This document shows, in pieces, positions 12,151-32,308 of a stretch of 64,000 bases of DNA (position 1 is its first letter; every line of letters starts with the position of its first letter). Made by a program: the position numbers and the translations under genes. This DNA is from Kribbella voronezhensis. GTDB taxonomy: Bacteria; Actinomycetota; Actinomycetes; Propionibacteriales; Kribbellaceae. The stretch spans positions 186,001-250,000 of the forward strand of contig NZ_SOCE01000003.1 in the NCBI RefSeq assembly GCF_004365175.1, written 5' to 3'. The notes beneath the pieces are model-generated. The model did not search any database. It had not been told where the DNA came from and was given only the letters and a program-made list of their open reading frames with translations.

Positions 12151-14448
12151 CTACGGGGTGTGGCGGAGCCAGAGGGTGGCTAGCGGGGGGACCGAGATTT
12201 CGGCGCTGCTGGGCATGCCGTGCCAGCCCGGGCCGTTGGCCTCGACGCCGCCGAAGTTGCCTACGCCGGAGCCTCCGTAGTCGGCTGCGTCGGAGTTCAC
12301 CAGTTCCTGCCAGTGGCCCTCGGAGGGCAGGCCGAGGCGGTAGCCGTGGTGGGGGACCGCCGAGAAGTTGGTGACGCAGGCGAGCGTCGGCTCGCCTGCG
12401 TCGCCGTACCGGACGAAGGAGAAGACGTTGTTGCCGGCGTCGTTCGCGTCGATCCAGGAGAAGCGGTCGGACGCGTGGTCGGTCGACCAGAGCGCCTTCG
12501 TGTCGCGGTAGCTGCCGTTCAGGTCCTTGACCAGTTGCTGAAGGCCCCGGTGGTCGGAGTGGTCGAGCAGCCACCAGTCGAGTTCGCCCTTCTCGGACCA
12601 CTCGGATTCCTGGCCGAACTCGCACCCCATGAACAGCAGTTGCTTGCCGGGATGGGCCCACTGCATCGCCAGGAACGCGCGCACGTTGGCGAGTTGCTGC
12701 CACCGGTCGCCCGGCATCTTGCGCAGCAGCGAGCCCTTGCCGTGCACCACCTCGTCGTGCGAGATCGGCAGCACGAAGTTCTCGGAGTACGCGTACATCA
12801 TCGAGAACGTCATCTCGCTGTGGTGGTACTGCCGGTAGATCGGCTCGTGCTCCAGGTAGCGCAGCGAGTCGTTCATCCAGCCCATGTTCCACTTGAACCC
12901 GAAGCCGAGACCGCCGAGATGGGTCGCGCGGGTGACGCCCGGCCACGAGGTCGACTCCTCGGCGACGGTGATCACGCCGGGAACGCGCTTGTAGAGGGTC
13001 GCGTTCATCTCCTGCAGGAACGACACCGCTTCGAGGTTCTCGCGGCCGCCGTACTGGTTCGGCACCCACTGGCCCTCTTCGCGGGAGTAGTCCAGGTAGA
13101 GCATCGAGGCGACCGCGTCGACGCGCAGCCCGTCGATGTGGAACTCCTCGGCCCAGTAGACCGCGTTCGCGACCAGGAAGTTCCGCACCTGGGGGCGACC
13201 GAAGTCGAACACCAGCGTGCCCCAGTCGGGCTGCTCGCCACGCCGCGGATCCGGGTGCTCGTACAGCGGCGTGCCGTCGAAACGTGCCAGGGCCCAGGCG
13301 TCCTTGGGGAAATGCGCCGGCACCCAGTCGACGATGACGCCGATACCCGCCTGGTGCAGTGAGTCGACCAGGAAGCGGAAGTCGTCCGGGTTGCCGAAGC
13401 GCGACGTCGGCGCGAAGTACGACGTGACCTGGTAGCCCCAGGAGCCGCCGAACGGGTGCTCCATCACCGGCATCAGCTCGACGTGGGTGAAGCCCATCTC
13501 GGTGACGTAGGCAACGAGTTCGTCGGCGAGTTCGCGGTACGACCTGCCCTTGCGCCACGAGCCGAGGTGGACCTCGTAGACGCTCATCGGCTCCGCGTAC
13601 GCCTGCGAGGCGGCACGTCGGTCGATCCAGGCGGAGTCCTGCCATTCGTACGTCGACTCGTGCACGACCGAGGCGTTCGCGGGCGGCGTCTCGGCCAGGT
13701 TGGCCATCGGGTCGGCCTTCTGCCGCCAGACCCCGTCGCGCCCGCAGATGTCGAACTTGTACCGCGTGCCCGGGCCGACGCCGGGGACGAAGAGCTCCCA
13801 GACCCCGGACGAGCCCATCGTGCGCATCGGGTGCGCGCGGCCGTCCCAGAAGTTGAAGTCGGCGGTGAGCCGGATGCCCTGGGCGTTCGGGGCCCAGACG
13901 GCGAACGACGTCCCGGTCACGGAGCCGGTCGGACCGTCGTACCGGCGGACGTGTGCGCCGAGCACGGTCCAGAGTTGCTCGTGCCGGCCTTCGCCGATCA
14001 GGTGCAGGTCCATCTCGCCCAGCGAGGGGAGATAGCGGTACGGGTCGTCGAGCTCGACCGCGGGACCGTCGGTGTAGGTGACCTCGAGCCGGTAATCGGG
14101 AACCTTGTCCACCTCGAGTACGCCGACCCAGACGCCATCGAACTCGTGCACCAGCTCGACCCGCTGGTCGTCGAAGACCGCGGTCACGGATTGCGCGAAC
14201 GGCCGCAACGCGCGCAGTGTCACGCCACTCTTACCGAGATGCGGACCGAGCACCTGATGCGGATCGTGGTACGTCCCACTGACGAGCCGCTCGAGGATCT
14301 GGCGTTCGACCGGCACCGCCACCAGCCCGACGGGTTCCGCCGGCGCGTCGGCCACCGCCGGAATCACGTGCTCGGGTTCGCTCATCGGCTCGGAGATCGG
14401 CGCTCCGGCCACCTCACTGACCTCGGTGTCCCGCTCACTCGAATCCAT
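12151..14448 (-). CDS. glgB: 1,4-alpha-glucan branching enzyme
   Basis: A 765-residue GH13 enzyme that introduces alpha-1,6 branches into glycogen or alpha-glucan. N-terminal CBM48 modules precede the catalytic barrel. Counting from the chosen start, the nucleophile Asp444 lies in [11 protein letters not shown] and the acid/base Glu497 in [10 protein letters not shown]; this 53-residue spacing is the same as in E. coli Glg[12 protein letters not shown] is also diagnostic. The start is uncertain: ATG 14448 (MDSSERD) has AGGATGGGG upstream, but in-frame starts exist up to 14487. It is the third gene of treS-mak-glgB, 79 nt after mak, and supplies branching for the GlgE pathway. Confidence 0.95.
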
Positions 14449-14527
14449 ACACCCCATCCTGCCCGATAGACCACACATCTCCCGCACCCCGTACCCGAAG
14501 CCCCCGGACCTACACGGCGGCGCCGGG

Positions 14528-15945
14528 TCAGTCGTCGGCGGAGGCGCTCAGTTGGGCGGCCGCGGCCAGCGGGATGGGCAGCCAGGTGGGGCGGTTGCGG
14601 GCTTCGTAAAGCGTTTCGTAGATGACCTTGTCCGCCAGGAACGCGCCCAGCAGGACGCCCTGGTCGCGAGGATCCGCGCCGGCCACCTCGGCGTAGCCGT
14701 CGCAGAAGGCCTTGCGGTTGCGGTTGGCCCATTCGGCCGCGCGGTACGCGATCTGCTGGTCACCCTGGTGGTCGGCCAGCAGTGAACGCGCGGCGTAGTC
14801 GAAGGACCGCAACATCCCGGCGATGTCCTTGATCGGGGTGTCCAGCGCGCGCCGCTCGATCAGCGACTTGGCCGGCTCACCCTCGAAGTCGATCAGCTTC
14901 CAGCCGTCGATCGTCCGCAGCACCTGACCGAGGTGGAAGTCACCGTGGATCCGCTGCACCGTCACGGGCTGCCCGTACTCCGCCAGCGCGTCGAACGCGC
15001 GGCAGAGACCCTCGGCGTACGGCTCCAACTCGGGAACGGCCGCGGCCGCCTTGTCGAGGCGGCGCTTCATCGCCGCCGCGTGCTCGACCATCAGTGCCGG
15101 CTCCCAGACGTCGGTGCCGAGTGCCTTGGCCAGTTCGGCGTGCACCTGCGCGGTCGCCGCGCCGAGCCGGTGGGACTCACCCGCGAAGTCGCCGCCGACC
15201 TCTTCGGCGTGCAGGTCCGCTTCGGCGTACAGGTCCCGGACCGAGGTGGTCGCGTACGACCAGCCGTCGGTCGCGTTCTTCTGGAACGCCGTCATCATCG
15301 CCAGGTCACCGGAATCCGTACCGCCGCCGGCGCGCGGCCAGGAGCCCCGCGCCGTCCCGAGCACCGCGGGCACCAGTTCGGAGCCCGCCTCGGTGAGTGC
15401 CGACTCGATCTCGACCCCGGGATTGCTCCCGGGCTCGAGCCGGCGGAACACCTTCAGCAGCGCGGTGTCGCCGAAGACCAGCGACGTGTTGCTCTGTTCG
15501 ACCGTGAGGACGAGAGACTGCGCGTCCTCCGGTACGACGATCGTGCGCTCCGGCGCGTGCACGGGGTGGAACTCCAGCCCGTCGCGGGTGCGGCCGTGCG
15601 TGAGCGCGTCCAGCCAGTACGGCGTCGCTTCCTTGTCGTGCAGCGCGTCGTACACCCAGACCCTCGTGTCGTCGAGGTCCTGCTCCACCCAGTCACCGAC
15701 CAGCGCGTGACCCATGTTGTCGGGCGGCGACTGGTGGTAGCTGAGCGGCAGCTGGTAGACCCGGATTGCGTTCTCCGCACCGGGCGGCCCGGCGCAGTAG
15801 ACGAATCCGATCCGGACCGCAGGCCAGACGCCCTCGTCCGACAGCCAGGCCGAGGTGGCCATCGCATCGACATGGACGTCGTGTCCCTTCTCTGAGAACC
15901 ATCGCTGGTTGGCACAGAAGGACTGGACCTGGTCCAGATGGGAAG

Positions 15946-15949
<4 letters not shown>
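14528..15949 (-). CDS. mak: Maltokinase
   Basis: A 473-residue kinase (Pep2 family) that phosphorylates maltose with ATP to maltose-1-phosphate, the GlgE donor. The fold is APH-like: the catalytic loop [11 protein letters not shown] has Asp337, and LIDFEGEP has metal-binding Asp354. The N-terminal cap domain (about 1-120) has QRWFSEKG, seen in mycobacterial maltokinases. The GTG start lies within the treS stop (GTGA overlap), indicating coupling to trehalose synthase, which supplies maltose. Confidence 0.93.
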
Positions 15950-17670
<1,721 letters not shown>

Positions 17671-17957
17671 GCTCACCTCCAATGGGTGTCATCCCTCGGT
17701 CCAAACCTAGCTGTGATGCGGTTTGCGGTACGCCGAAATGATCCGGCGACGCGCGGGTGGACACGCTTTCTCCGGGCTGCACTGATATCCCTTACCCGTC
17801 AGACGGTTTCTCAAAAGGGCAGTACGGTCCGGTGATGTCCGGTGCTGTGGAAACCGGCCGTGGGATGGCGGTCCTGGCCGACGCTCCGCTCAGTCTGCCG
17901 GGCCTTTGCCAGTACATGCAAATGGGGGCCTGATCGCCCTATCTGCGGGCCGATTCC
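17671..17957. other. Non-coding gap between arfC-like gene and treS
   Basis: 287 bp with no convincing gene on either strand. It must hold the treS promoter. An inverted pair TTTGC (17905-17909) / GCAAA (17918-17922) with an 8-nt spacer lies 52 nt after the arfC-like stop, inside a larger GGCC...GGCC context; it could be a weak terminator or an operator. Nothing else was recognised. Confidence 0.4.
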
Positions 17958-26302: not shown

Positions 26303-27478
26303 GTGCGCTTCTCAGCCTTGCGTCAGCTCGAATGCCCGAAGTGCGGTCTCGTCCACGACCCCGATCAGGTGATCGGTCTCTGCGACTGCGGCTCGCCCCT
26401 GCTCGCCCGCTACGACCTCGACGAGGTGCGGGCCGGCCTGACCAAGGCGGAGGTCGCCTCGCGGGCGCCGGATCTCTGGCGGTACCACGAGTTGCTGCCG
26501 GTCCGCGATCCGGCGAACGTGATCAGCCTGGGGGAGGGCATGACCCCCTTGCTCGCCCTGCCGGCGTACGGGCGGGAGCTCGGCGTACCGAACCTGCTGA
26601 TGAAGGACGAAGGGCTGATCCCGACCGGCACGTTCAAGGCGCGCGGGGCCGCGGTCGGGGTGTCGCGCGCGTACGAGGTCGGCGTGCGGAAGATCGCGAT
26701 GCCGACGAACGGGAACGCCGGGTCGGCGTGGGCGACCTTCGCGGCCCGGGCGGGGATGGAGGCGCTGATCGCGATGCCGATCGCGGCGCCGGAGATCTGC
26801 CGGCGGGAGGTGACGATCGTCGGGGCGGAGCTGAAGCTGATCGACGGGTTGATCGGTGACGCCGGCGCCTGGATCCGCGAGCAGTTGGCGACGCGGGACG
26901 GCTACCTGGACGTGTCGACGTTGAAGGAGCCCTACCGGATCGAGGGCAAGAAGACGATGGGTCTGGAGATCGCCGAGCAGCTGGGCTGGAAGATGCCGGA
27001 CGTGATCCTCTACCCGACCGGTGGCGGCGTCGGGCTGATCGGGATCTGGAAGGCGCTGGCCGAACTGGCCGCGCTCGGCTGGGTCGACGGGCCGATGCCG
27101 CGGCTGGTCGCGGTACAGGCCACCGGGTGTGCGCCGATCGTGACGGCGTGGGAGAAGGGACTGCCGGAGAGCGAGCCGTGGGCCGACGCGAAGACCGTTG
27201 CCTTCGGCATCACTGTGCCGAAGGCGCTCGGTGATTTCCTTGTCCTGCAAGCGATCGCGGAGACCGATGGTTGCGCGATCGCCGTGGACGACGAGGAGAT
27301 CCTTGCTGCTCAGCGTCGCTGCGCCGAGGTGGAAGGCGCCTTCGTGTGTCCCGAAGGCGCCGCCAACTTCGCTGCTGTCCGGCAACTCCGGGCGTCGGGC
27401 TGGATCAAGGCCGATGATCAGGTCGTTGCCCTGAACACCGGTACCGGCCTGAAGTACCCGGAGACGGTCCCGCTCTAG
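26303..27478 (+). CDS. thrC: Threonine synthase
   Basis: A 391-residue PLP enzyme converting O-phosphohomoserine to threonine. An N-terminal zinc-ribbon-like motif (CPKCG...CDCG, about 10-30) precedes the catalytic domain. The PLP lysine is Lys112 in GTFKARG, and a glycine-rich phosphate loop follows in PTGGGVGLIG. This is the zinc-ribbon-bearing thrC class; related PLP lyases (cysteate synthase-like) are an alternative. The GTG at 26303 fits the first conserved residues. No other threonine gene is nearby. Its stop overlaps the convergent glgE stop within a CTAG tetramer. Confidence 0.87.
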   Translation: MRFSALRQLECPKCGLVHDPDQVIGLCDCGSPLLARYDLDEVRAGLTKAEVASRAPDLWRYHELLPVRDPANVISLGEGMTPLLALPAYGRELGVPNLLMKDEGLIPTGTFKARGAAVGVSRAYEVGVRKIAMPTNGNAGSAWATFAARAGMEALIAMPIAAPEICRREVTIVGAELKLIDGLIGDAGAWIREQLATRDGYLDVSTLKEPYRIEGKKTMGLEIAEQLGWKMPDVILYPTGGGVGLIGIWKALAELAALGWVDGPMPRLVAVQATGCAPIVTAWEKGLPESEPWADAKTVAFGITVPKALGDFLVLQAIAETDGCAIAVDDEEILAAQRRCAEVEGAFVCPEGAANFAAVRQLRASGWIKADDQVVALNTGTGLKYPETVPL

Positions 27479-29463
27479 GCCTGCCCGCGGCGGACCGCGA
27501 GGATGTGCGCCGGCTCGCCGTTGGGGTCGAGCTTGACGTAGTTCTGCTGGCCCCAACGCCAGGTGGCGCCGCTGATCTCGTCGTACACGGTGAAGGTGTC
27601 CTCCGGGCGCATGCCGAGGGCCGCCATGTCGAGGTGGACCATCGACTCGCGGACCGAGTGCGGGTCGGTGTTCACCACGACGATGACGGTGTCGCTGTGC
27701 CCGTCCGGGCCGGTGACCCGCTTGGAGAAGCACATGATCTGGTCGTCGTCGACCGTGTGCAGGCTCAGGTTGCGCAGTTGCTGGAGCGCGGGGTGCCGGC
27801 GCCGGATGTTGTTCAGCAGCGTGATGTACGGCGCGAGCGTGCGACCCTCGGCGGCAGCCGCCTCCCAGTCGCGCGGCCGGAGCTGGAACTTCTCGGTGTC
27901 CAGGTACTCCTCGGAGCCCGGCCGCAGCGCGACGTGCTCGAACAACTCGTAGCCCGCATACACACCCCAGGCGGGTGCGGAGGTCGCGGCGATCGCGGCG
28001 CGGATCTTGAACGCGCCCGGACCGCCGTACTGCAGGTAGGCCGTCAGGATGTCCGGCGTGTTCACGAAGAAGTTCGGCCGCAGGTAGTGCCCGGTCTCCT
28101 GGGTCAGCTCCTGCAGGTACTCCTCCAGCTCCCACTTCTCGTTGCGCCAGGTGAAGTAGGTGTACGACTGGTGGAACCCGACCTTCGCCAGCTCACGCAT
28201 CATCGGCCGGCGGGTGAACGCCTCGGACAGGAACACCACGTCCGGGTCGGTCTTGCGGACCTCGCCGAGCAGCCATTCCCAGAAGTTCACCGGCTTGGTG
28301 TGCGGGTTGTCGACCCGGAACACGGTGACACCGTGGGAGATCCACAGCTTCACGATCCGCAGCACCTCGGCGTAGATGCCCTCGGGGTCGTTGTCGAAGT
28401 TGATCGGGTAGATGTCCTGGTACTTCTTCGGCGGGTTCTCCGCGTACGCGATCGAACCGTCGGCGCGGACCGAGAACCACTTCGGGTGCTCGGTCACCCA
28501 CGGGTGATCCGGCGAGGCCTGCAGCGCAAGGTCGATCGCCACCTCGAGCCCGAGCTCGCGGGCCCGGCCGACGAAGTAGTCGAAGTCCTCGAAGGTGCCG
28601 AGCTCGGGGTGGATCGCGTCGTGACCGCCCTCGGCCGAACCGATCGCCCACGGCGAACCGGGGTCACCCGGCTTCGGGTCGAGGGTGTTGTTCGGACCCT
28701 TGCGGTACGAGTGACCGATCGGATGGACCGGCGGCATGTAGAGCACGTCGAAGCCCATCTTGGCGACGGCCTCGAGCCGCTCCGCCGCCGTACGGAAGGT
28801 GCCCGACTTCCAGGTCTGGGTCTCCTCGTCGAACCTCGCGCCTTCGGAGCGCGGGAAGAACTCGTACCAACTGCCGTAGAGCGCGAGGCGACGGTCCACC
28901 CAGACCGGGAAGGTCTCGGAGGAGGTGATCAGTTCGCGGACCGGATACCGCCCGAGGGCGGCGCGGACCTGCGGCGAGATCCCGGCGGCGAGCCGGGCCT
29001 CCGGCGGCAGTGCGCCGTTCGCCAGCGCCTGCGCGGCGTCACTCAACGTACTGCGGTCCACGCGCACCGCCGGTGGCACACCGGCCGCGGCGCGGTCGAA
29101 GAACGCGGCGCCCTCGGCGAACATCAGGTCGACGTCGATACCGGCCGGGATCTTGATCTCGGCGTTGTGCCGCCACGTCCCGTACGGATCGCTCCAGCCC
29201 TCGACCGCGAACGTCCAGGCACCCTGCTCCTGCAGGGTGACGTCGACCGTCCACCGGTCGCTGCCCTGGCCGACCGGGGACATCAGCATCCGTCTGGTCT
29301 GTCCCGTCGGCGACGTCAGTACGACGTTCGCGTTCACCGCGTCGTGTCCCTCGCGGAACACGTCGGCCGCGATGGTGAAGGTCTCGCCGACCGACGCCTT
29401 GGCCGGATACGCTCCGGCGTCGACGGTCGGGCTGACGTCGGTGATCGGGATGCGCCCAGTCAT
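27475..29463 (-). CDS. glgE: Maltose-1-phosphate maltosyltransferase
   Basis: A 662-residue GH13_3 enzyme that transfers maltosyl units from maltose-1-phosphate to the non-reducing end of alpha-1,4-glucan, releasing phosphate. An N-terminal Ig-like domain (about 1-110) precedes the barrel. The nucleophile Asp385 lies in FRVDNPHTKP and the acid/base Glu414 in FLSEAFTRRP; the 29-residue spacing equals that of Streptomyces coelicolor GlgE. It is divergent from glgP across 247 bp. Together with treS, mak and glgB at 12-17.7 kb it completes the GlgE pathway, though it is not in their operon. Confidence 0.95.
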   Translation of the reverse strand: MTGRIPITDVSPTVDAGAYPAKASVGETFTIAADVFREGHDAVNANVVLTSPTGQTRRMLMSPVGQGSDRWTVDVTLQEQGAWTFAVEGWSDPYGTWRHNAEIKIPAGIDVDLMFAEGAAFFDRAAAGVPPAVRVDRSTLSDAAQALANGALPPEARLAAGISPQVRAALGRYPVRELITSSETFPVWVDRRLALYGSWYEFFPRSEGARFDEETQTWKSGTFRTAAERLEAVAKMGFDVLYMPPVHPIGHSYRKGPNNTLDPKPGDPGSPWAIGSAEGGHDAIHPELGTFEDFDYFVGRARELGLEVAIDLALQASPDHPWVTEHPKWFSVRADGSIAYAENPPKKYQDIYPINFDNDPEGIYAEVLRIVKLWISHGVTVFRVDNPHTKPVNFWEWLLGEVRKTDPDVVFLSEAFTRRPMMRELAKVGFHQSYTYFTWRNEKWELEEYLQELTQETGHYLRPNFFVNTPDILTAYLQYGGPGAFKIRAAIAATSAPAWGVYAGYELFEHVALRPGSEEYLDTEKFQLRPRDWEAAAAEGRTLAPYITLLNNIRRRHPALQQLRNLSLHTVDDDQIMCFSKRVTGPDGHSDTVIVVVNTDPHSVRESMVHLDMAALGMRPEDTFTVYDEISGATWRWGQQNYVKLDPNGEPAHILAVRRGQA

Positions 29464-29633
29464 GGAGTTAACGAACCTTCGCTTTCCGACTAGCGGGGAC
29501 AGAGAAGTACAGCACTGACGTTATCGGTTCCCATTGTGTCGCCACGCCATGCAAGGGTCACAGTTCGGTCGGTCTGTCCACGACTCGGTCGGTTGCCTCA
29601 CCGGTCGGTCCTGCCGTGCAACTGGTCTGGTCC

Positions 29634-29660
29634 TGCAAGATCTTGCTCGCGTTGCAAGAT
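29634..29660 (+). promoter_or_regulatory. Direct repeat TGCAAGAT with embedded palindrome, candidate MalR-like operator
   Basis: TGCAAGAT occurs at 29634-29641 and again at 29653-29660, 19 bp apart (about two helical turns). The first copy is the left part of a perfect 12-bp palindrome, GCAAGATCTTGC (29635-29646). CTTGCAG-type elements are the sites I recall for LacI-family MalR regulators of Streptomyces maltose and amylase genes. The site lies 51 nt before glgP, in the shared glgE/glgP gap. Confidence 0.55.
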
Positions 29661-29710
29661 TGATGCATCCCGAGGGTGTTCTGGGCTCGGTCTGCCGGTA
29701 CGGTGTCCCG

Positions 29711-32308
29711 GTGCGAGCGATACGACGATTCTCCGTCCGCCCTGTCCTGCCCGAGCCGCTGACCGGTCTCGGCACCCTGGTGAACAACCTTCGCTGGGCC
29801 TGGCACCCGGAGACACAAGATGTCTTCGAGGCTGTCGACCCCCAGCTGTGGCGGTCCACCGGCGGTGACCCGGTCCGGCTCCTCGGTGAGGTCCCGGCGG
29901 CCCGGCTCGACGAGCTGGCGAACGACCATGCCTTCCTGCGCCGGCTCGAGCTGGCGGTGGCCGACCTGACCGGTTACGTGACCGACGACCGGTGGTTCCA
30001 GTCCGACGCCGGTACGCCGGTCAACTCGGTCGCCTACTTCTCGCCGGAGTTCGGCATCACCCACGTCCTGCCGCAGTACTCCGGCGGTCTCGGCATCCTG
30101 GCCGGCGACCACCTGAAGGCGGCCAGCGACCTCGGCGTGCCGTTGATCGGCGTCGGCCTGATGTACCGGCACGGCTACTTCGTGCAGTCGCTGAACCGCG
30201 AGGGCTGGCAGCAGGAGCGGTACCCGCTGGTGGACCCGGACGGGCTGCCGATCAGCCTGCTCCGCGACGGCGAGGCACCTGCCCTCGTCACCGTCACCCT
30301 GCCGGGCGGCCGCGAACTGCACGCCCAGATCTGGGTCGCCCAGGTCGGCCGCGTGCCGCTGCTGATGCTCGACTCCGACATCGAGGAGAACGAGGCCGCC
30401 GAGCGCGAGGTCACCGACCGGCTGTACGGCGGGACGACCGAGCACCGGCTGCTCCAGGAGCTCCTGCTCGGCGTCGGCGGTGTCCGCGCCGTCCGCGAGT
30501 ACTGCCGGATCACCGGCCACGCGGCGCCCGAGGTCTTCCACACCAACGAGGGCCACGCCGGCTTCCTCGGCATCGAGCGCATCCGCGAACTCGCCACCGA
30601 GCAGCAGCTCGACTTCGACACCGCGCTCGAGGTCGCCCGCGGCGGCACCGTGTTCACCACCCACACGCCGGTCCCGGCCGGCATCGACCGGTTCCCGGTC
30701 GAGCTGATCCAGCAGCACTTCTCGCCGGACGTGTTCGGCGACGGTGTCCCGATCGACCGGATCCTCGCGCTCGGCGCGGAGGACTTCGAGAACGGCGACC
30801 CGAGCGTCTTCAACATGGCGATCATGGGGCTGCGGCTGGCCCAGCGCGCCAACGGTGTCTCCAAGCTGCACGGCGTCGTCAGCCGCGGGATGTTCGCCGG
30901 GCTGTGGCCGAGCTTCGACCCGTCCGACGTGCCGATCACCTCCATCACCAACGGCGTGCACGCGCCGACCTGGGTGGCGCGGGAGATCTCGGCGCTGACT
31001 TACGCGAACGCCGACCAGGGCGACTCCGAGGGCATGTTCGAGGGTCTGGACAAGACCACCGACGCGCTGCTGTGGGAGACGAAGCGGATGCTGCGGCAGC
31101 GCTTCATCGACGACACCCGCGCCCGCGTCCGCGCGTCCTGGGTGAACCGGGGCGCGTCCGAGGCCGAACTGGGCTGGGTCGACTCGATCCTGGACCCCGA
31201 CGTCCTGACGATGGGGTTCGCGCGCCGCGTACCGTCGTACAAGCGTCTGACGCTGATGCTGCGCGACCCGGCCCGGTTGAAGGCGCTGCTGCTGCACCCG
31301 ACCCGGCCGATCCAGATCGTCATCGCCGGCAAGGCCCACCCGGCCGACGAGGGCGGCAAGAAGCTGATCCAGGAAATGGTGCGCTTCGCCGACGACCCCG
31401 AAGTACGGCACCGCATCGTCTTCGTGCCCGACTACGACATCGCGCTGGCGCAGCCGATGTACCCGGGCTGCGACGTCTGGCTGAACAACCCGCTGCGTCC
31501 CTACGAGGCCTGCGGTACGTCGGGGATGAAGGCGGCGCTGAACGGTGCGCTGAACCTGTCGATCCGCGACGGCTGGTGGGACGAGTGGTACGACGACGAG
31601 TTCGGCTGGGCGATCCCGTCCGCCGAGGGCATCGAGGACACCGACCGCCGCGACGACCTCGAGGCGCACGCGCTGTACGACCTGATCGAGAAGCAGGTCG
31701 CACCGCGCTTCTACGACGGTGACGTCCCGGGCCGCTGGATCGAGATGCTCCGGCACACGATCAAGGAACTCGGCCCGAAGGTGCTCGCGACCCGGATGGT
31801 GCGCGACTACGTCGAGCGGCTGTACGTGCCGGCCGCGCACTCGTCGCGCGAGCTCAACTCGACGTACGAAGGTGCGCGCGCGTTGGCGGCGTGGAAGAAG
31901 AAGGTGCGGGCGGCCTGGCCGCAGATCCGCGTCGACCACGTCGAGTTGCAGGGCCTTGGCGACGTACCGCAGCTCGGTACGACGGTCGGGATCCGCGCGT
32001 ATGTGACGCTGGGCGACCTGACTCCTGGCGATATCGACGTCGAGGCGCTGCACGGCCGGGTGAACTCCGACGACGAGATCACCGACCCGGTCCGGGTGTC
32101 GCTGTCGCTGGCGGAGACGTACGAAGGCAACCGGCACCGGTACGAAGGTGAGCTGAAGCTCGACCGCACCGGCCCGTTCGGCTACACGGTCCGCGTCCTC
32201 CCGAAGAACGCGATGCTCGCCAGCCCCGCCGAACTGGGCCTCGCCGCAGGCCCCTCGGACCCCGAGGACCCGGAAACCCCGGACCTCCCCGCCGGCTCCG
32301 AGTTCTAA
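29711..32308 (+). CDS. glgP: Alpha-glucan (glycogen/maltodextrin) phosphorylase
   Basis: An 865-residue enzyme that phosphorolyses alpha-1,4-glucan to glucose-1-phosphate. The N-terminal DUF3417-type domain (about 1-110) marks the long actinobacterial GlgP subgroup. The catalytic part has YFSPEFGI, YSGGLGILAGDHLKAASDLG, FHTNEGHAGF, and the PLP lysine Lys607 in ACGTSGMKAALNG. The GTG at 29711 (VRAIRRFSVRP) begins the conserved sequence; an open frame extends upstream to 29534 but runs through the operator region and is not conserved-looking. A terminator follows. It is the catabolic partner of GlgE and shares a regulatory gap with it. Confidence 0.93.
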   Translation: MRAIRRFSVRPVLPEPLTGLGTLVNNLRWAWHPETQDVFEAVDPQLWRSTGGDPVRLLGEVPAARLDELANDHAFLRRLELAVADLTGYVTDDRWFQSDAGTPVNSVAYFSPEFGITHVLPQYSGGLGILAGDHLKAASDLGVPLIGVGLMYRHGYFVQSLNREGWQQERYPLVDPDGLPISLLRDGEAPALVTVTLPGGRELHAQIWVAQVGRVPLLMLDSDIEENEAAEREVTDRLYGGTTEHRLLQELLLGVGGVRAVREYCRITGHAAPEVFHTNEGHAGFLGIERIRELATEQQLDFDTALEVARGGTVFTTHTPVPAGIDRFPVELIQQHFSPDVFGDGVPIDRILALGAEDFENGDPSVFNMAIMGLRLAQRANGVSKLHGVVSRGMFAGLWPSFDPSDVPITSITNGVHAPTWVAREISALTYANADQGDSEGMFEGLDKTTDALLWETKRMLRQRFIDDTRARVRASWVNRGASEAELGWVDSILDPDVLTMGFARRVPSYKRLTLMLRDPARLKALLLHPTRPIQIVIAGKAHPADEGGKKLIQEMVRFADDPEVRHRIVFVPDYDIALAQPMYPGCDVWLNNPLRPYEACGTSGMKAALNGALNLSIRDGWWDEWYDDEFGWAIPSAEGIEDTDRRDDLEAHALYDLIEKQVAPRFYDGDVPGRWIEMLRHTIKELGPKVLATRMVRDYVERLYVPAAHSSRELNSTYEGARALAAWKKKVRAAWPQIRVDHVELQGLGDVPQLGTTVGIRAYVTLGDLTPGDIDVEALHGRVNSDDEITDPVRVSLSLAETYEGNRHRYEGELKLDRTGPFGYTVRVLPKNAMLASPAELGLAAGPSDPEDPETPDLPAGSEF

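Follow-up and report, generated by a model that had tools for sequence, protein, structure and literature searches.

A pair of tandem inverted repeats, conserved in position, lies immediately upstream of the glycogen phosphorylase gene glgP in each of 38 Kribbella species analyzed and in a sister family. We consider it probable that this block, positions 29633-29668 of the window (the 64-kb stretch of DNA analyzed here, at its full length), is a double operator of glgP that accommodates two dimers of a MalR-type regulator, likely repressing the gene until maltodextrin releases it. The site, its conservation, its fixed geometry, the shared site at malR and the orthology of the regulator were computed directly. 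MalR control of glgP has already been predicted in Bifidobacterium; hence, the kind of system is known and the Kribbella member is new. Our literature search found no paper on this Kribbella site. The site offers a testable transcriptional input to glycogen mobilization in actinobacteria employing the GlgE route, one that would be tied to maltodextrin sensing.

Two tandem inverted repeats in the glgE-glgP gap

The original prediction described two copies of TGCAAGAT spaced 19 bp apart, one of them within the palindrome GCAAGATCTTGC, between the main glucan-building and glucan-breaking genes. Both copies are present (29634-29641 and 29653-29660, 19 bp from start to start), as is the perfect 12-bp palindrome (29635-29646), and they do lie in the 247-bp gap that separates glgE (minus strand, start at 29463) from glgP (plus strand, GTG at 29711). 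TGCAAGAT has no further copies on either strand of the 64-kb window, against an expectation of 0.32, and at least two copies arose in 3 of 100 shuffles. The palindrome alone is unremarkable, as one of at least 12 bp appears in 6% of gap sequences shuffled by dinucleotide; its length and the count of repeated 8-mers were matched together in 0.05% of such shuffles. The core TGCAAGATCTTGC occurs once in the 8.03-Mb genome by pattern scan. The case for a site from the single sequence is moderate only, and the decisive evidence is comparative.

The candidate functional unit is somewhat wider than the 29634-29660 originally proposed. It appears to consist of two tandem inverted repeats, which we term operators A and B (29633-29648 and 29652-29667; roughly -78 to -44 relative to the glgP GTG; Table 1). 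Both carry CTTGCAG-like half-sites as repeats (CTGCAAG-AT-CTTGCTC and TTGCAAG..ATGCA), the arrangement of a MalR-type operator of the LacI family. The positions of operator A are kept in 34 to 38 of the 38 Kribbella genomes, with the exception of the two central bases (29639-29640). Operator B, which reads TTGCAARATCGATGCA, is conserved across the genus and is single in the genome even when up to two mismatches are allowed; its palindrome is imperfect, with a spacer longer than that of operator A, and its TGCAA and GCA halves are retained in the sister family. The centers fall at about -71 (A) and -51 (B), about 19.5 bp apart, and the predicted operators would face almost the same side of the helix. 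Four TGC/GCA steps run across A and B at spacings of 10, 9, and 11 bp. We also considered the 19-bp direct repeat of TGCAAGAT as the unit and rejected it: the sequence of operator A is TGCAAAAT or TGCAAGTT in the majority of relatives, and it is the inverted-repeat arms that persist.

Table 1. Features of the glgE-glgP region and the gene of the candidate regulator
Feature	Position	Strand	Remarks
glgE, maltose-1-phosphate maltosyltransferase	27475..29463	-	PF11896 7.6e-62, PF21702
glgE-side conserved element GGGAACCGATAACGTCAG	29515..29532	-	present in almost all of the 37 glgE-aligned Kribbella sequences
Operator A (predicted), CTGCAAG-AT-CTTGCTC, near-perfect inverted repeat	29633..29648	+	core palindrome 29635-29646
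Operator B (predicted), TTGCAAG-ATTG-ATGCA, second inverted repeat, less symmetric	29652..29667	+	
-35 region CCCGAGGGTGTTC, conserved, matches TTGACA poorly	29669..29681	+	mean 1.46 bits over 29669-29679
-10 hexamer TACGGT, ends 6 nt 5' of GTG	29699..29704	+	
glgP, alpha-glucan (glycogen) phosphorylase, GTG start	29711..32308	+	TIGR02094 1e-225; PF11897, PF00343
LacI-family gene, predicted MalR ortholog	G000:C1:2636699-2637715		divergent from msiK/ugpC-type ATPase gene

Position and spacing are fixed relative to the glgP promoter

The start codon of glgP is the same GTG in all 38 Kribbella genomes. CTGCAARNTCTTGCTCGCGTTGCAARATCGATGCAT occupies -78 to -43 of the gene in every one (38/38), free of indels as far as the GTG in 37 and with one additional nucleotide in the last (G032). 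The block 29633-29668 averaged 1.67 bits of information per column, the -35 region 1.46, the spacer 0.81, and the surroundings of the -10 1.93, versus 0.30 for the 82 bp upstream of the operator. Between 29697 and 29710, 12 of 14 columns are invariant. Since the -10 ends so close to the GTG, transcription is predicted to start at or beside this codon, and the glgP mRNA is probably leaderless.

A sister family (f4), probably Actinopolymorphaceae although this name is a guess, also has the site in 8/8 genomes, one of which (G050) carries a degenerate version. In this family, it takes the form TGCAAAACCTTGCTC....TGCAA.......GCA and starts 79 bp 5' of the glgP GTG in all eight. The sister-family -10 (TAGCCT or TAGCGT) is 2 bp farther from the start codon than in Kribbella, so the distance from the site to the -10 is unchanged: 65 bp from the start of operator A in both groups, with one Kribbella genome 1 bp longer. 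Conservation upstream of glgP in related species, the lack of which would have refuted the original prediction, thus extends to 38 Kribbella and 8 sister-family genomes.

A MalR ortholog is the likeliest reader of the site

The core CTGCAANNTCTTGC has only two occurrences in the 8-Mb genome. One is the glgP site, and the other, at G000:C1:2637763, lies between a LacI-family gene and a divergent gene for a UgpC/MalK-type (msiK type) ATPase. The motif is therefore infrequent genome-wide, as the original prediction required, and the only other exact core is found at the gene of a MalR-clade regulator. The encoded protein has the LacI helix-turn-helix and sugar-binding domain (PF00356, PF13377, and PF00532) and is 98% identical to its counterpart in K. 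monticola and 89-94% identical to those of other Kribbella. In a tree sampled from the top hits of this query gene itself, it groups with LacI genes of Streptomyces, Nocardioides, Glycomyces, and Cellulomonas that adjoin genes for malE-type binding proteins and permeases, some of the Streptomyces members being located just 3' of a glucosidase gene instead. By this grouping, the Kribbella protein falls in the MalR clade. Adjacency to malEFG is typical of MalR genes but does not define them; it was not found at the Kribbella LacI gene, whose neighbor is the msiK/ugpC-type ATPase gene. An ortholog is present in every genome that bears the site (38/38 Kribbella and 8/8 sister family, the latter at 65-70% identity).

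The gene also carries a site in its own promoter, with CTGCAAGTTCTTGCA lying 5' of it in this genome. Among 30 Kribbella lacI loci, 26 have the pattern CTGCAA[GA]NNCTTGCA, which frequently forms the array CTGCAAGTTCTTGCAGGATCTTGCTGCAAG. The repeats at these malR promoters are nearer the -10 than those at glgP. The sister-family lacI promoter has partial CTTGC sites only.

A LacI gene 92% identical to that of Kribbella is found in a record named Streptomyces sp. SID13031 (L142), which is probably a misnamed Kribbella. Other Streptomyces LacI loci show about 60-66% identity to the Kribbella protein, and two distant matches show 35-36%.

Beyond the exact core, the genome has 13 occurrences of the arrangement GCAAG-N2-CTTGC, including those at malR, at glgP, at a paralog that we call LacI2 (see below), and 5' of one other LacI gene. 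One more occurrence, in a different CG-centered form, is near a further gene start; the remainder are in or near coding sequence. Scans that allowed one mismatch returned mostly coding-region matches, fewer than the reversed-pattern control, so a larger regulon cannot be claimed from these pattern-based scans, which weak or half-site members would escape. We observed, in addition, that TGCAATCCTTTGCA is present twice at an interval of 98 bp (G000:C1:673057 and 673155; L098 and L099) 5' of another LacI-type gene; the pair is likely an operator pair of the adjoining regulator.

Comparison with known regulators of the LacI family

The Streptomyces lividans MalR binds CTTGCAG repeats with the core CTTGCAG, and AcrC of Actinoplanes sp. 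SE50/110 binds CTGCAAG-N2-CTTGCAG at a tested operator, O2 (PMC5526262). Kribbella operator A is one base away from O2 (13/14 positions agree), and the layout of the AcrC operator O1, CTTGC-N7-GCAAG, is found between operators A and B. Unlike the Kribbella regulator, AcrC targets acbE and acbD, and its O1 and O2 are 182 bp apart, as opposed to 19 bp for the Kribbella pair. The MalR of S. lividans and S. coelicolor shares with Kribbella a LacI regulator of the same clade and CTTGCAG/CTGCAAG half-sites; however, the Streptomyces gene lies beside malEFG and targets malE and amylases, whereas the Kribbella gene lies beside that for an msiK-type ATPase and has glgP as its predicted target.

The MalR regulons of Bifidobacterium have glgP as a member, and the predicted regulon of B. 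bifidum MalR3 consists of itself and glgP (PMC4746261); AraQ binds and represses glgP1 in B. breve (PMC6882875). Membership of glgP in the regulon and autoregulation are therefore features that Bifidobacterium MalR1/2/3 and AraQ have in common with the system proposed here, without implying orthology to the Kribbella MalR. The glgP sites of Bifidobacterium differ in that they overlap the -35/-10 and repress, while those of Kribbella are upstream of the -35 (PMC4746261, PMC6882875).

Proposed mechanism and alternatives

We infer MalR binding, the inducer, and the sign of control as follows. Two dimers of the Kribbella MalR ortholog would bind 29633-29668, upstream of the weak -35 and the conserved -10. 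Inducer-free MalR would most likely occlude the -35 region and so repress glgP, and maltodextrin would release it, with the consequence that alpha-glucan uptake and phosphorolysis would rise together. The malR promoter carries the same site, and autoregulation is predicted. Our lean toward repression over activation is slight and comes from the habit of the LacI family, the precedent of AcrC at acbE, and the precedent of glgP in Bifidobacterium. What counts against repression is that the operator lies wholly upstream of the -35, a placement that suits activation at least as well.

Activation by the same regulator at the same site, through contact with RNA polymerase, is a possible alternative to which we give a minority share of belief; MalR would at the same time repress malR, whose site overlaps the -35. 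LacI-type AraQ and MalR1 of Bifidobacterium are inferred to be activators when they are positioned upstream of the -35 (PMC6882875). In Kribbella, the operators end about 6 bp 5' of a -35 that is not TTGACA-like, and the 65-bp phasing to the -10 is identical in two families; a site upstream of a weak -35 at an exact phasing favors activation, as does the position of the repeats closer to the -10 at malR than at glgP. On the other side, LacI regulators are mostly repressors, and steric occlusion predicts a fixed spacing too. Furthermore, the operator through which AcrC represses acbE lies 3 bp 5' of the -35 (PMC5526262). Slightly more speculative still is a two-mode MalR in Kribbella and the sister family, which would repress its own gene and activate leaderless glgP via two rigidly phased dimers, its exact-site regulon having shrunk to malR, the ATPase neighbor, and glgP.

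The same block might instead be read by LacI2, or by a protein that recognizes the four TGC steps as direct repeats in the style of a response regulator, which we think unlikely. These steps are about one helical turn apart and are retained in both families. The lacI2 gene lies 14 kb from malR, next to genes for a sugar-binding protein, a permease, and a GH13 protein (L114; G000:C1:2645713-2651863), and its product shares an identical recognition helix, SEATVSRVLNGK, with the MalR ortholog. Its own promoter contains a similar site, CGCAAGAACTTGCG, with CGCAAG-AA-CTTGCG (a GCAAG-N2-CTTGC arrangement) and a CTTGC direct repeat. However, this half-site is one base off that of MalR, with CGCAAG..CTTGCG in place of TGCAAG, LacI2 forms a separate clade from the MalR ortholog (support 100/100), and the sole further exact core is at the MalR gene. 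Although both regulators are found in 38/38 Kribbella, LacI2 is missing from 7 of the 8 sister-family genomes, all of which keep the glgP site as well as the MalR ortholog; MalR is hence the likelier reader. Far less plausible is that the block is conserved because it encodes additional N-terminal residues of GlgP, read in frame from an ATG at 29663, or because it acts as an RNA element. The frame is open from 29633 in this genome, and the ATG is present in most genomes, but stop codons interrupt the frame in 5 of 38 Kribbella, among them one genome that also has a 1-bp shift. The sister family shows an offset of 2 bp, and variability is equal at all three codon positions (0.63, 0.63, and 0.58 bits). 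For these reasons, we rejected the coding extension. An Rfam search gave no match, and the block is upstream of the -10, which speaks against an RNA element. Chance similarity without function, to which the frequency of palindromes of this length among the gap shuffles might point, has a negligible probability: it is refuted by conservation in 46 genomes at a fixed spacing next to a randomized flank.

A probable glgP operator that is unlikely to control glgE

The original prediction assigned the operator to glgP and, in parentheses, to glgE, and proposed a switch between storage and mobilization. A conserved, predicted MalR-type operator is indeed found for glgP; the assignment to glgE is not supported. 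Across Kribbella, the glgE-glgP intergenic length ranges between 162 and 294 bp, yet the distance from the operator to glgP is fixed, and glgE has a conserved element of its own, GGGAACCGATAACGTCAG, at a variable distance from the operator. A shared operator was rejected on these grounds, and glgE is probably not controlled by the glgP site. GGGAACCGATAACGTCAG contains TAACGT, a -10-like hexamer, with no conserved -35 seen, and is probably the glgE promoter. As control of glgE is unsupported, the proposed switch finds no support either.

Short-motif matches, the only basis for these assignments, suggest treS- and glgB-like genes some 10 kb from glgE on the minus strand (12154-17688 of the window). 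Threonine synthase-like and peptidase-like genes, likewise identified by short motifs only, are unrelated to them and intervene, so glgE may not share one operon with the treS- and glgB-like genes.

Distribution across the order

Of the 294 genomes of the order that were scanned, 43 contained a composite pattern of the site, each a single time, compared with 0 matches for a reversed control pattern. By group, the matches fell in 36/38 Kribbella, 7/8 sister-family, and 0/248 other genomes; because the pattern was built from the Kribbella and sister-family sites, its presence there is by construction, and its absence elsewhere is the informative part. All matches compared with glgP coordinates lie 77-79 bp 5' of the gene. 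A search of a plasmid collection for the site gave no match. Five Streptomyces-like glgP promoters that we examined are without the site although MalR is present, which argues that it is no general Streptomyces feature.

The locus exemplifies regulatory rewiring: two families have the site as a fixed feature, the examined Streptomyces promoters lack it, and Nocardioidaceae-like genomes have an unrelated palindrome in its stead. In the latter family (f3), glgP promoters have the palindrome TTGGAWCGWTCMAA, with a central CG, over the -35 in place of the MalR-type site (L196, L198, L200, L207-L210, L212, L213, and L215-L217). This palindrome looks like the operator of a different regulator, that is, an operator swap.
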